A DNA stretch of 50,660 nucleotides from Gemmatimonadota bacterium (lineage in GTDB: Bacteria > Gemmatimonadota > Gemmatimonadetes > Longimicrobiales > Gaopeijiaceae), in assembly GCA_007121455.1 (NCBI GenBank), contig SKKN01000040.1, positions 1 through 50,660 of the forward strand, read 5' to 3'. The position numbers and the translations under genes were made by a program. This document shows, one piece after another, positions 9,438-17,525 of the stretch (the stretch's first letter is position 1; every line of letters begins with the position of its first letter). A model generated the notes under the pieces. That model saw only the letters and a program-made list of their open reading frames with translations, ran no database searches and was not told the DNA's origin.

Positions 9438-9722
9438 ATGAACAAATCCGAGCTCGTGGATGCCCTGGCGAATGATACGGGGATGACGAAGGCGGATTCC
9501 ACGAAGGCCGTGGACGCCCTCTTCGGCACGGATGGAGGAATCATCTCAGGGGCCCTCAAGCAAGGGGACAGGGTCCAGATCACCGGCTTCGGGACGTTCG
9601 AGACCAAGGAGCGGAAGGCGAGGACCGGCCGGAATCCGAGGACCGGAGAGTCGATCCGGATCGCCGCGACGAAGACGCCTGGTTTCCGCGCGGGGAAAGG
9701 CCTCAAGGACGCGGTGAAGTAG
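9438..9722 (+). CDS. HU family DNA-binding protein
   Basis: A 94-residue nucleoid protein of the HU/IHF family. It begins MNKSELVDALA, typical of HU, with the DNA-bending arm containing GFGTFETKERKARTGRNP near residues 50-67, the site of the conserved HU signature. As a dimer it binds and bends DNA with little sequence preference, compacting the chromosome. A strong ribosome site (AAGGAG) lies 9 bases before the ATG, and a near-ideal terminator hairpin follows at 9811-9843, so the gene is a single-gene transcription unit with presumably high expression. HU and IHF-like members cannot be separated securely here, but the N-terminus favours HU. Confidence 0.95.
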   Translation: MNKSELVDALANDTGMTKADSTKAVDALFGTDGGIISGALKQGDRVQITGFGTFETKERKARTGRNPRTGESIRIAATKTPGFRAGKGLKDAVK

Positions 9723-9845: not shown

Positions 9846-11438
9846 TCATCGATCTCCTCGCCCCTTTCCTCCACGGGACTCACGCCCCCGTACCCCCCGG
9901 GTGCGGTCCTCCCGGTCGTAGTCCGCCCGCACGCTCCGGCCTCGGAGCGTCGTTCCGTTCAGCGCTCGGATCACCCGCCCCGCTACACTCTCCTCCACGT
10001 CCACCCTGGAAAAGGTATCCCTGATTTCGATCCTTCCAACCTGAGACCCTTCGATCTCGGCCTCCCCGGTGATCGCGCCCACCAGGTCTCCGGGTCTCAC
10101 CTGGTCCCGCTCCCCGATGCTGAGAAAGAGGCGCACCCACGCCGGAGGGCGAGCGGTCCCCCCGCTCCGACCTGACGGCGCGTCGGCGCCTCCCCCCGCA
10201 CCCTGGGCCTCTCCGGTTCCGGCTCGGACGAGATGCGATAACGCTCCGGCGACTTCCTGGGGCGACCACTCCTGGAAGAGCGGTTCGAGGAGGAGGACGT
10301 GCGGGGTCAAGTCGTGGTCCTCGAGTGTCTCCCGAACCCTCGCGAGGTGGCGACTCACATCGTCCATCACGTGGGCGGGAGTCTCGACCGGCGCCGTCTT
10401 CAGGGAGTAGCCGGCCTCTCTCGATACCTTTCGGAGGTGCGCCAACTCGCGTGGCCCCACGAGCACTCCGGAGGAGGTCGTTTTCGAGTGTCGTCGGTCG
10501 AGGGTGTCCGCATCCGCGGGGACGTCGATGCTCACGCTTGCTACGGAGATGTTCTCGTCCGAGGCGGCCTGCACGGCGGAGCGCGCCTCCAGAGCGTCCA
10601 CCCCTAGCCAGACTGGAACGTCCCGGTCCCCGGGAGGACCCACGGCGTATCCTCGAAGGCCGAGGATGTCCCCGACGTCGGCGGCGCGGTCGTCGGATCG
10701 GAAGAAGAGGAGGACATGGTCGTGGTCGGCGTCGAGGAGGTCGGTCACCATCTCGGCGACCTCGCTCTCCTCGTCCCTCGAGCGCACCCGGTAGCGAACC
10801 TCGCCGCGGTGGGGGCTCGCCGTGTCGGACTCCGCCCCCGCGTCCGAAGGGAGGAGAACGGCGCGGTGGGTGTGGGCATCGATGAACCGGCGGTCTTCCG
10901 TCGTGACGGGAAGCGACGTGAAGATTCGCTGCGCGTCCTGTGGCACCGCGCTCAAAACCGCCTCGAGCGGCGTGATCATACCCGCGGCGCGCATGCGCCC
11001 GAGGCCGTCACCGACGACGCAGCGCACGCCATCCAGCTTGACCCGTGCGGCCTCCACTCCTCGCCGGAGTGCTTCGGGCGTGGCGAGAAGGAGGTCTGCA
11101 TGTTCCGGGAGCGGCCAGGGGAGATCCAGGGCCGCGACCCGGTGCCCCGTGCTCGTGGCGAGGCGGGCGAGGGAGAGCGCGAGGCCCTCGACCTCGTCCC
11201 GGGAGGCCGCGAGGATCAGGGCCCGCGGTGCGGTGCCCTCCGATTCCAGCGACTCGAGGATTCCCGCGCTGTAGGCCAGGAAGATCCCCCCTCCCGGTCC
11301 TCCTTCCAGGAGAACGGAGCGTCCCCTGCGCACGAGTGGGATCGCTTCACGCTGGATCGCCGTGGGGACCTCGATCCCTTCGCCGGCGAGCGCCTCCACG
11401 AGCTCCGGTCGAAGCTCGAGGTCGTCAAACGATTGCAT
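9846..11438 (-). CDS. Degenerate DEAD-box protein with DbpA-type RNA-binding domain
   Basis: A 530-residue protein with the layout of a DEAD-box RNA helicase but without its ATPase residues. The Q motif survives (FDDL, then PTAIQREAIP with Q29). Motif I, normally AxTGxGKT, is EGGPGGGI at 45-52 with the Lys lost. Motif II, normally DEAD, is GDGL at 143-146. Motif III, normally SAT, is TSL at 174-176, and no HRxGRxxR motif VI is present. Motif Ib survives as TPEALRRG. Residues 430-510 resemble the DbpA/CsdA RNA-binding domain (RLFLSIGERDQVRPGDLVGAI), followed by an Arg/Gly-rich tail. It therefore probably binds RNA or ribosomes without unwinding. I chose the ATG at 11438 behind GAGGTGAGG; a GTG at 11450 is possible. 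It is last in a three-gene minus-strand group. Confidence 0.8.
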   Translation of the reverse strand: MQSFDDLELRPELVEALAGEGIEVPTAIQREAIPLVRRGRSVLLEGGPGGGIFLAYSAGILESLESEGTAPRALILAASRDEVEGLALSLARLATSTGHRVAALDLPWPLPEHADLLLATPEALRRGVEAARVKLDGVRCVVGDGLGRMRAAGMITPLEAVLSAVPQDAQRIFTSLPVTTEDRRFIDAHTHRAVLLPSDAGAESDTASPHRGEVRYRVRSRDEESEVAEMVTDLLDADHDHVLLFFRSDDRAADVGDILGLRGYAVGPPGDRDVPVWLGVDALEARSAVQAASDENISVASVSIDVPADADTLDRRHSKTTSSGVLVGPRELAHLRKVSREAGYSLKTAPVETPAHVMDDVSRHLARVRETLEDHDLTPHVLLLEPLFQEWSPQEVAGALSHLVRAGTGEAQGAGGGADAPSGRSGGTARPPAWVRLFLSIGERDQVRPGDLVGAITGEAEIEGSQVGRIEIRDTFSRVDVEESVAGRVIRALNGTTLRGRSVRADYDREDRTRGVRGRESRGGKGRGDR

Positions 11439-11483
11439 CGGGCGCCTCACCTCTGGGCTTTCGCGTGTCGTGATGGGAACGGG

Positions 11484-11786
11484 TCACTTCGGATCTCCCG
11501 AGCCGGGGCCGCCTTCGTCCTCCGGCTCGTAGGGAAGCAGGTTCAGGAATCTCTGGATCTCATAGTCCATCCGGGAGGTGCGCAGTCGGTCAGTGGAGGC
11601 CGTCACCTCGGTGAATGGTCCGTGCCGGTGAGCCGACAGGATCACCGTGCCCTCCTCGCCCGTGTACGTCGCTCCATGGTCGGACTCCTTGGTGTTCCGG
11701 AGCCCGATCCGGGCCGGAAGCACTTCCCTCGCTCTCTCGAGCACCTCCCGGATCGGAAGCGCCGTCTTTCTGGAATATCCTGCCAT
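11484..11786 (-). CDS. Small conserved-looking hypothetical protein
   Basis: A 100-residue, unrecognised protein. It starts MAGYSRKTALPIREVLERAR, then has a segment GATYTGEEGTVILSAHRHG that reads like a beta hairpin, a short helical part (YEIQRFLNLLPYEP) and an acidic Gly/Pro-rich tail. It has no signal peptide or membrane span. It lies 45 bases upstream of the pseudo-helicase gene and 40 bases downstream of the DsbA-like gene, all on the minus strand, so cotranscription is likely. Supported as a gene by this spacing and by normal amino-acid composition only. Confidence 0.55.
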   Translation of the reverse strand: MAGYSRKTALPIREVLERAREVLPARIGLRNTKESDHGATYTGEEGTVILSAHRHGPFTEVTASTDRLRTSRMDYEIQRFLNLLPYEPEDEGGPGSGDPK

Positions 11787-12657: not shown

Positions 12658-13869
12658 ATGGAGTTCAGCCAGAACATCGCCGACCTCAGCCCTTCCGCGA
12701 CGATGGCGGTGAGCGCGCTCGCACGAAGACTCCGCGCAGAGGGCAAGGACGTCATCAACCTGAGCGCGGGCGAGCCGGATTTCGACACGCCGGGCTGGAT
12801 CTCGGATGCGGCCGTCCGGGGTCTCCGCGAGGGGGGCACGCGGTACACCCCCCCCGCGGGCCTTCCGGAGCTAAGAGAGGCTGCGGCCGAGAGTCTCGCT
12901 CGGCTCGCTCCGGGCGGCGAACGGAGCTTTCGATCGGACGAGATCGTCGTTTCCTGTGGAGCCAAGCACTCCCTCTTCAACGCATGCTTTTCCCTTTTCG
13001 GGCCTGGCGACGAGGTGCTGGTCGCCGCGCCGTACTGGACCAGCTATCCCGAGATCGTGAAGCTCGCGCGGGCGGCACCGGTATTCGTGAAAGGACCCGA
13101 AGCGCGTGATTTCCGACTCGCCCCGGACGATCTGGAAGCGCGGCTGACGCCCCGGACGAAGGGGCTCATCCTCTGCTCCCCCGGCAATCCGACCGGCGCC
13201 GTGTACTCGGCCGATGAGCTGCGGGCCGTGGCGGAGTGGGCAAAGGCCCGCTCCGTGTGGCTCGTGAGCGATGAGATCTACAGGAGCATCTACTTCGGAC
13301 GGGGTGGACCGAACAGGGCGCCCAGTATTCTGGACCTTCCGGCCGGGTCCCTTGGCCCGGCCGTGCTCGTGGATGGACTGTCGAAGGCGTTCGCAATGAC
13401 GGGTTGGCGAATCGGATTCACCTGGTCGAGTGCAGCCGTCGCTTCGAGGATGGCCGCGCTGCAGAGTCACACGACCTCCAACCCGGCTACTCCTTCCCAG
13501 TTCGCCGCCCTGGAAGCCCTTCGGAGCCCCGAGCGGGCGGAGCGGGACATCGGGGAGATGCGGAAGGCTTTCCTTCGTCGCCGGGACCTGGCCGTGTCGC
13601 TCATGGAGCAACATCTGCCCGGGCTCTCCTACGTGCGACCGGAAGGAGCCTTCTACCTCTTTTTCCGGATCGACGGCACCCTGGGAGCCGAAGTCACAAC
13701 TTCCGAGGCGTGGTGCCAGCGGGTCCTCGAGGAGTCCGGTGTTGCGGTCGTGCCGGGGAGTGCGTTCGGGGACGATCGCTACGTCCGGCTCAGCTTCGCC
13801 ACCTCCGACGAGATGTTGTCCGAAGCGATGCGGCGGATGGGTGCCGTCGTCTCGGCCGTGCGGAGCTGA
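12658..13869 (+). CDS. Class I/II PLP aminotransferase (aspartate aminotransferase type)
   Basis: A 403-residue fold-type I PLP enzyme. The PLP-binding Lys is K243 in VDGLSKAFAMTGWRIGF; the cofactor-contacting SPGNPTG is at 174-180 and SDEIY at 204-208, with R251 near the substrate carboxylate site. INLSAGEPDFDTP at 33-45 is typical of the AspB/AspC-like subgroup that transfers the amino group of aspartate to 2-oxoglutarate, sometimes also acting on prephenate or aromatic acids. It starts at an ATG behind GGGGGAG. The O-methyltransferase gene follows 6 bases later, so the two are almost certainly cotranscribed, though no shared pathway is obvious. Confidence 0.92.
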   Translation: MEFSQNIADLSPSATMAVSALARRLRAEGKDVINLSAGEPDFDTPGWISDAAVRGLREGGTRYTPPAGLPELREAAAESLARLAPGGERSFRSDEIVVSCGAKHSLFNACFSLFGPGDEVLVAAPYWTSYPEIVKLARAAPVFVKGPEARDFRLAPDDLEARLTPRTKGLILCSPGNPTGAVYSADELRAVAEWAKARSVWLVSDEIYRSIYFGRGGPNRAPSILDLPAGSLGPAVLVDGLSKAFAMTGWRIGFTWSSAAVASRMAALQSHTTSNPATPSQFAALEALRSPERAERDIGEMRKAFLRRRDLAVSLMEQHLPGLSYVRPEGAFYLFFRIDGTLGAEVTTSEAWCQRVLEESGVAVVPGSAFGDDRYVRLSFATSDEMLSEAMRRMGAVVSAVRS

Positions 13870-16214: not shown

Positions 16215-17525
16215 ATGACCGAACAAGAGAATGGGGACGGAGGAGCGAGCACGGTGCCGGAGGGGGGTGAGGAGCTTCGGACCTTCGACGCGCTCGGGCT
16301 CTCTCCGGAGCGGCTCGCCGCGGTGGAGGCGGAGGGTTGGACGGATCCCACGCCGATCCAGAGGAAGGCAATACCTTCCGCGATCCAGGGAAAAGACGTT
16401 GTCGGGATCGCTCAGACCGGGACGGGCAAGACCGGAGCGTTCATCCTTCCCTCGCTCGAAAGGATCGAGGCGGGTAAGGGCCTCCAGCTCCTCGTCCTCT
16501 GTCCCACGAGGGAACTCGCACAACAGGTCGCCGAGGACGCACGAGCCCTGGCCCGCGGCAGCACGCTCCGGGCGGAATTCGTGGTGGGAGGCGTCGGGTA
16601 CGGCCCGCAGACGGAGGCTTTTCGGGCCGGCTATGAGATCATCGCGGCGACCCCCGGCCGGTTCAACGACCACATGGGCCAGGGAAAGGTGGACCTGGGC
16701 AACCTCCGGGTGCTTGTCCTCGATGAAGCGGATCGGATGTTGGACATGGGGTTCCGCCCCCAGATCGAGGAGGTGCTCCAGCGGAGCCCGCGCACTCGCC
16801 AGACGATGCTCTTCTCCGCGACGATGCCGGATGGAGTCCATGCCCTCGCGCTCCGCGTCACCCGCGACCCGGTATGGGTCCAGGCCGCTCCCGGGACGAC
16901 GACCGCGGAAGGCATCACGGAGCGCGTGTACCCGGTCAAGCCGGAGAAGAAGCCGGACCTCCTGCTCCACCTCCTGGGGGAGACGGGGTGGGACCAGGTC
17001 CTCGTCTTTACCCGGACCAAGGCCGGGGCGGATACTCTGAAGGGGAGGCTGGATCGGGCTGGGATTCAGGCGGACGTGATGCATGGGGACCGGGAGATGC
17101 GTCATCGGACCCGGGCCCTGGACCGATTCGCTTCCGGATCCGTGAGAGTGCTCGTGGCGACGGACGTGGCTCAGCGGGGCCTCGACGTGGAGGGCATATC
17201 CCACGTCGTGAACTACGACGTTCCCCTGGACCCGGACGACTACGTGCACCGGATCGGAAGAACTGCCCGTGCCGGAGCAGCGGGGACCGCGGTGACCTTC
17301 GTGGCGGCCGAAGACTTCGGCCGCTTGAAGTCGATCGAGCGGCTCGTCGGTCGAAGCCTCGACCGGGTACACCTGGCGGAGTTCGATTTCGGTGGAGCGC
17401 CCACGTCCGAGGAAGAGCAGGCCCGGAAGGCCGCGGCGAGACATGCGCGTTCGTCGAAGGGGATGGGTTCGCGGGACCCCGGCGAGCTGTCTCCGGAAGA
17501 GCTGGACGCGCTTCTCCGCCCATGA
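16215..17525 (+). CDS. DEAD-box ATP-dependent RNA helicase (RhlE-like)
   Basis: A 436-residue helicase with complete motifs: Q motif PTPIQRKAIP (45-54), motif I AQTGTGKT (66-73), Ia PTRELAQQ, Ib TPGR, II DEAD (170-173), III SAT (201-203), and VI HRIGRTARAG. The linker and short acidic C-terminus lack a DbpA-type RNA-binding domain. The ATG at 16215 was chosen because the protein reads as a normal N-terminus from there; the upstream open frame is antisense to the phosphatase gene. Members unwind short RNA duplexes in ribosome assembly and RNA decay. The next gene overlaps by ATGA. This intact enzyme contrasts with the degenerate homologue encoded at 9846-11438. Confidence 0.93.
   Translation: MTEQENGDGGASTVPEGGEELRTFDALGLSPERLAAVEAEGWTDPTPIQRKAIPSAIQGKDVVGIAQTGTGKTGAFILPSLERIEAGKGLQLLVLCPTRELAQQVAEDARALARGSTLRAEFVVGGVGYGPQTEAFRAGYEIIAATPGRFNDHMGQGKVDLGNLRVLVLDEADRMLDMGFRPQIEEVLQRSPRTRQTMLFSATMPDGVHALALRVTRDPVWVQAAPGTTTAEGITERVYPVKPEKKPDLLLHLLGETGWDQVLVFTRTKAGADTLKGRLDRAGIQADVMHGDREMRHRTRALDRFASGSVRVLVATDVAQRGLDVEGISHVVNYDVPLDPDDYVHRIGRTARAGAAGTAVTFVAAEDFGRLKSIERLVGRSLDRVHLAEFDFGGAPTSEEEQARKAAARHARSSKGMGSRDPGELSPEELDALLRP

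Follow-up and report, generated by a model that had tools for sequence, protein, structure and literature searches.

A degenerate DEAD-box protein with a conserved DbpA-type RNA-binding domain in Gemmatimonadota

Described relatives and the pseudo-helicase in the window

Work on pseudo-enzymes has dealt extensively with kinases and very little with RNA helicases. The eukaryotic SSU-processome factor Utp25/Def has two degenerate DEAD-box-type RecA domains that have lost catalysis, and is retained as a working factor; it is essential although its DEAD-box motifs are dispensable, and a 2022 paper describes it as the first fully validated pseudohelicase (PMC9539457). Of the bacterial DEAD-box proteins, DbpA is targeted to nascent ribosomes by its RRM, which binds hairpin 92 of 23S rRNA (PMC7973409). 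YxiN and Hera use main-chain amides to recognise a guanine (I436, G437 and I439 in YxiN), K427 of YxiN reads a uridine, and the RNA-binding domain (RBD) of Hera binds GGGPyr and not the hairpin 92 loop (PMC3695512). Our literature search, made mostly outside subscription papers, returned no bacterial DEAD-box pseudohelicase and lends novelty weak support. With a probability of about 0.6, sequence comparison suggests that the protein described here is a maintained, non-catalytic descendant of DbpA/DeaD that binds rRNA, probably hairpin 92 of 23S rRNA, in assembly or quality control of the 50S subunit.

The gene lies at 9846..11438 on the minus strand of the window, i.e. the whole stretch of 50,660 nucleotides that was analysed, which is contig C56 of an assembly of 3.53 Mb and 95.6% completeness. 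Those of its relatives that are named all belong to Gemmatimonadota. The frame is free of stops over 534 codons (9846-11450, minus strand), and an in-frame GTG at 11450 overlaps the ribosome-binding site AGGTGAGG found about 8 nt upstream of the ATG at 11438. As all homologues align from this ATG and the site precedes it, we place the start there, so that the coordinates and the open frame of 530 codons given in the earlier note yield the right 530-aa protein.

Motif I reads GGPGGGIF and lacks the lysine, the motif II position reads V-GDGL instead of DEAD, at motif III TSLP replaces the SAT of intact relatives, motif V is beyond recognition and motif VI (HRIGRxGR) is missing, while the Q-motif residues F4, P25, T26 and Q29 are kept. 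The earlier note had read motif I as GGPGGG without Lys, motif II as GDGL, motif III as TSL, motif VI as absent and the Q motif as retained, and sequence and alignment bear this out throughout. Its summary that the ATPase motifs are lost was correct but incomplete. The core motifs contacting RNA (Ia Arg, GG, Ib Arg and QxxR) have disappeared together with the ATPase residues, which makes a helicase-like grip of the core on RNA improbable. Judged from its lost motifs, the protein is non-catalytic.

Four domains are predicted. A degenerate RecA1 (aa 1-198; 10845..11438, minus strand) has, in model and alignment, kept the Q motif and lost motifs I, Ia, GG, Ib, II and III. In the degenerate RecA2 (aa 212-348; 10395..10805, minus strand), delimited by the model, motifs IVa, V and VI are lost. 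Pfam detects the first of them weakly (DEAD, PF00270, E=1.7e-8, aa 30-179 of the 534-aa frame) and finds no Helicase_C match in the window protein. A helical domain of dimerisation type follows in the model (aa 355-407; 10218..10376, minus strand) with a weak match to DeaD_dimer (PF25399, E=0.005; 17.3 bits, below the cut-off of 23). The DbpA RBD at about aa 434-508 (9915..10137, minus strand), seen in Pfam and model, is strongly conserved and precedes a disordered RG-rich tail; the match to PF03880 (E about 1e-24, aa 440-509 of the 534-aa frame) substantiates the DbpA/CsdA-like C-terminal domain suggested before.

For an AlphaFold model, 16 sequences from the window and from named loci were used; its mean pLDDT is 83, and both the linker between helical domain and RBD and the C-terminal tail are disordered in it. 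Foldseek ranks RNA-bound E. coli DbpA first (7pli, E=1.8e-24). RecA1 of the model superimposes on DeaD (5gju) with 1.6 Å over 197 residues (Z 30.6), and CshA and eIF4A are matched over two domains. The whole-model TM of about 0.4 and the large overall rmsd are expected if the domain orientations differ. According to the model, two RecA-like domains are kept, so that the fold check proposed in the earlier note returned a RecA pair and a DbpA-type RBD.

DbpA/YxiN resembles the protein in its order RecA1-RecA2-RBD, in the PF03880 family of its RBD and as the top match in sequence and fold. Unlike DbpA/YxiN, however, the pseudo-helicase has neither ATPase nor core RNA-clamp motifs, carries an extra helical domain before the RBD and scores 107 bits against the cut-off of 524 for the DbpA equivalog NF008744. 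Hera has a similar layout (RecA1-RecA2-dimerisation domain-RBD-basic tail), and CshA aligns over aa 1-408. In contrast to DeaD/CsdA, CshA and Hera, the pseudo-helicase is devoid of catalytic motifs and its dimerisation domain is only weakly recognised.

Graded motif loss at a conserved locus

Whole-genome searches recovered orthologues from the great majority of genomes in the window's family and order of Gemmatimonadota, mostly full-length and with about 38-55% identity. In two genomes of the order that are at least 90% complete (G036 and G139), no clear pseudo-helicase was found, which reflects either loss or an assembly gap. DEAD and motif VI are absent from 46/46 aligned sequences of the order, and since all 45 orthologues among them share this loss it cannot be put down to chance. 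In the same set Pfam finds Helicase_C in none and the DbpA RBD in all 46. The lysine of motif I is present in 8/46, as opposed to 22/22 intact homologues; it is gone in the window's own family f1 and in f2 and kept as GSGSGKTL in the sister family f3. Its persistence in one sister family places the loss of DEAD and motif VI first. Q29, G49 and G51 are invariant across the 46 sequences, and F4, G21, P25 and T26 each occur in 90% or more of the order.

Other families of the class extend the series. DEAD is lost and the P-loop largely kept in f9, whereas f4-f7 are more degenerate and have lost both Q motif and P-loop. In part of f5 an RG-rich tail replaces the RBD, and the pseudo-core and the helical domain persist. 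Thus, a single phylum holds a graded series running from the loss of DEAD and motif VI through that of the P-loop lysine and the Q motif to that of the RBD. Individual sequences illustrate its stages: Walker A is intact as GSGSGKTL or similar in the f3 type (L042, L044, L045, L054 and L072) and in f9 (L158-L159), and in both DGAS or DGVS stands in place of DEAD, which marks an intermediate step. In a Gemmatimonadota family other than that of the window, several genomes (L184-L189) encode a form without RBD that retains the degenerate RecA core and the helical domain and ends in a disordered RG-rich tail; one such orthologue, L186, matches no Pfam family.

A profile scan covered 84,980 named genomes, and the best 80 of 514 related stretches were examined. 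Among these 80, degenerate versions came from Gemmatimonadota only, and every homologue from outside the phylum had intact GKT, DEAD, SAT and HRIGR-type motifs. The class-wide profile matches 148/150 genomes of the phylum, a figure that includes intact DbpA-type proteins and hence is not a count of pseudo-helicases. Plasmid records gave distant matches only, the best of them labelled as regular DEAD/DEAH-box helicases. No intact version with GKT and DEAD occurred among the orthologues examined; the motif losses are common to related genomes and do not mark an isolated decayed copy, the point on which the earlier note had suggested a homologue search.

All degenerate sequences form one clade with respect to the intact homologues (SH-aLRT/UFBoot 100/100), which all fall outside it, and FastTree recovers the same clade. 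Long branches could inflate this support; synteny, however, does not rest on the tree. The arrangement aminotransferase (divergent), DsbA, 100-aa protein, pseudo-helicase and HU (convergent) is shared by much of the order. In the window, the run starts with a DsbA-like thioredoxin gene (PF01323; 11827..12426, minus strand), continues with the operon gene for the conserved 100-aa protein (11484..11786, minus strand) and meets the gene of the HU DNA-binding protein, assigned by Pfam (9438..9722, plus strand). The divergent flank (12658..13869, plus strand) is a gene that we take to be aminotransferase-like from its sequence alone. Aminotransferase and HU are also syntenic in other families of the class, where one or both flank most of the more degenerate copies. 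Judging from the sequences, the gene has probably been inherited vertically, from one ancestral loss of catalysis. The 100-aa protein is itself better conserved than the pseudo-helicase (51-76% identity). It has no Pfam match, and its model (pLDDT 81), with a predicted β-α-β4-α fold, gave no significant structural match in the PDB.

The RNA-binding domain and possible roles of the protein

The closest sequence match of the window RBD is E. coli DbpA. The main-chain guanine strip is kept, I436-G437-I439 of YxiN corresponding to V467-G468-I470, and G468 is invariant in the order alignment. Gly takes the position of YxiN Lys427, which is also the case in E. coli DbpA, and the first loop of the domain (β1-α1) resembles that of the DeaD/CsdA RBD; on both counts, specificity for hairpin 92 is not assured. 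Hairpin 92 (GGGCUGUUCGCCC) with its loop UGUUC is canonical in the 23S rRNA genes of relatives, from which alone it was read because 23S rRNA was not found in the own genome, nor by an RNA model in G004 and G034. One further genome (G006, L178; G006:C83:584-602) has two hairpin 92 versions, followed downstream by GCCATTT and GCCCGTT, one of which may stem from a contaminating contig.

In a census of 34 family genomes, each at least 90% complete, 27 encode a single DbpA-RBD protein, and in 25 of these 27, including the single-contig genomes G021, G024 and G122, its coordinates identify it as the pseudo-helicase. The own genome also has an intact RBD helicase on contig C38 (652-aa frame). Like its counterparts elsewhere (L055-L057), it shares domain order and RBD type with the pseudo-helicase but has all catalytic motifs intact, lies at another locus and groups with other intact helicases outside the pseudo-helicase clade. 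The intact DEAD-box gene at 16215..17525 (plus strand), which the earlier note had taken to cover canonical function, is indeed intact by Pfam and alignment. It is RhlE-like without an RBD, however, and therefore does not cover DbpA function; it is a paralogue and not a substitute. A weak PF00270 match (23.8 bits) in another 534-aa frame of the own genome (G000:C30:737-1204) possibly represents one more degenerate helicase.

On the proposed 50S reading, a DEAD-box helicase of DbpA/DeaD type would have lost catalysis and kept its fold and RBD. The RBD would bind rRNA, most likely in the region of 23S hairpin 92, the target of DbpA/YxiN, and the RG-rich tail may also contact rRNA. Without ATP turnover, the protein would have a passive part on 50S precursors. 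It might hold the immature peptidyl-transferase centre, as a placeholder or chaperone, or offer a platform to a partner; the RNA or rRNA chaperone suggested in the earlier note would be a reasonable role. The two RecA domains would provide a scaffold, and self-association, possibly as a dimer, would fall to the helical domain. As part of f5 has exchanged the RBD for an RG-rich tail, binding of rRNA through the RBD cannot be the whole function everywhere.

A less specific role, as general RNA chaperone or as CsdA- or cold-shock-like regulator of mRNA or translation, would likewise use RBD and RG tail, here to bind structured RNA, but without being confined to the 50S subunit. The DeaD/CsdA-like β1-α1 loop, the lineages in which the RG-rich disordered tail is all that is left C-terminally and the preference of the Hera RBD for GGGPyr over the hairpin 92 loop (PMC3695512) are consistent with it. 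We nevertheless regard it as rather unlikely, because the RBD is closest to that of E. coli DbpA and because most family genomes encode no DbpA-RBD protein besides the pseudo-helicase.

The helical domain raises the question of a partner. PF25399 is matched by 26/46 members of the order (E<=0.01), residues A397-A399 are nearly invariant in the order alignment, and pairs of a pseudo-subunit and an active subunit are a known theme, as in AddAB/RecBCD. This DeaD_dimer-like conservation could indicate a regulatory, non-catalytic subunit that pairs with an active DEAD-box helicase. In G021, G024 and G025, however, whose genomes are closed or nearly so, the pseudo-helicase is the only protein with a DbpA RBD, and a DeaD_dimer protein was not detected; this speaks against obligatory pairing with a helicase of DeaD type. 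Helicases without the dimerisation domain, e.g. that at 16215, could still be partners, but on balance we give such a pairing little credence.

Slightly less credible again is a nucleotide-sensing switch, in which the Q motif and the GxG loop would still take up an adenine nucleotide, leave it unhydrolysed and so gate RNA binding. With Q29 and G49xG51 invariant in the order, residual nucleotide binding may remain, and one sister family keeps GSGSGKTL. This invariance could equally be structural, and in other families of the class the gene persists despite the loss of Q motif and P-loop.

Selection and the meaning of a degenerate series

The nearest orthologues of the window protein are about 55% identical and dS would saturate; therefore, dN/dS was determined for closer pairs elsewhere in the class and not for the window's own lineage. 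The closest pairs gave 0.08-0.16 at dS of about 0.2, a value of 0.10 was reached at dS of about 1, and most other pairs were in the range of 0.17-0.28, with one pair (L049-L054) at 0.47. Mean pairwise identity of RecA1/RecA2 decreases from 0.58/0.58 in intact homologues to 0.40/0.37 in the own order and 0.29/0.27 in other families, whereas the helical domain stays flat (0.36, 0.39 and 0.38) and the RBD reaches 0.47, 0.58 and 0.48, respectively; since some groups are phylogenetically broader than others, comparing domains inside one group tells more than the absolute values do. The core has acquired conserved residues of its own, namely the clade-specific W108 (42/46; Gln in 19/22 intact homologues) and H317 (44/46). 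The locus is conserved, and purifying selection acts on the gene. With the predicted fold kept and no intact orthologue among those examined, dN/dS and synteny agree with the earlier view of a maintained rather than decaying gene.

A decaying pseudogene, i.e. an isolated DEAD-box copy losing motifs by drift, would explain why core identity lies below that of intact homologues and why degeneration continues across the class, but it is scarcely conceivable given the shared orthologues with an open frame in essentially all of them, the conserved locus, dN/dS well below 1, an RBD more conserved than in intact helicases and the new conserved core residues. A sequencing or frameshift artefact was also dismissed, the same losses recurring in independent assemblies.

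Judged from sequence and predicted fold, the protein is a pseudohelicase in the sense of Utp25: the helicase fold is kept, the catalytic motifs are lost and the gene is maintained by selection. By analogy, and as far as can be told, Utp25 is its closest precedent and the protein would work like it. Unlike the bacterial protein, Utp25 is eukaryotic, belongs to the small subunit and has no DbpA RBD, and we claim homology no closer than the DEAD-box fold. A 2009 study, to go by its title in the references of PMC7973409, reportedly makes a natural, tolerated inactive version puzzling.

More tentatively, and with slightly less than even odds, the graded series may represent a class-wide pseudo-helicase of ribosome assembly, in which catalysis was lost once before the sampled families split and an ATP-free role at hairpin 92 was taken where the active DbpA-type enzyme has been dropped. 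One phylum keeps the whole degradation series at one locus, and many of its members lack an active enzyme of DbpA type. Together, these features make it testable how much of the role of a DEAD-box protein in 50S assembly needs ATP.
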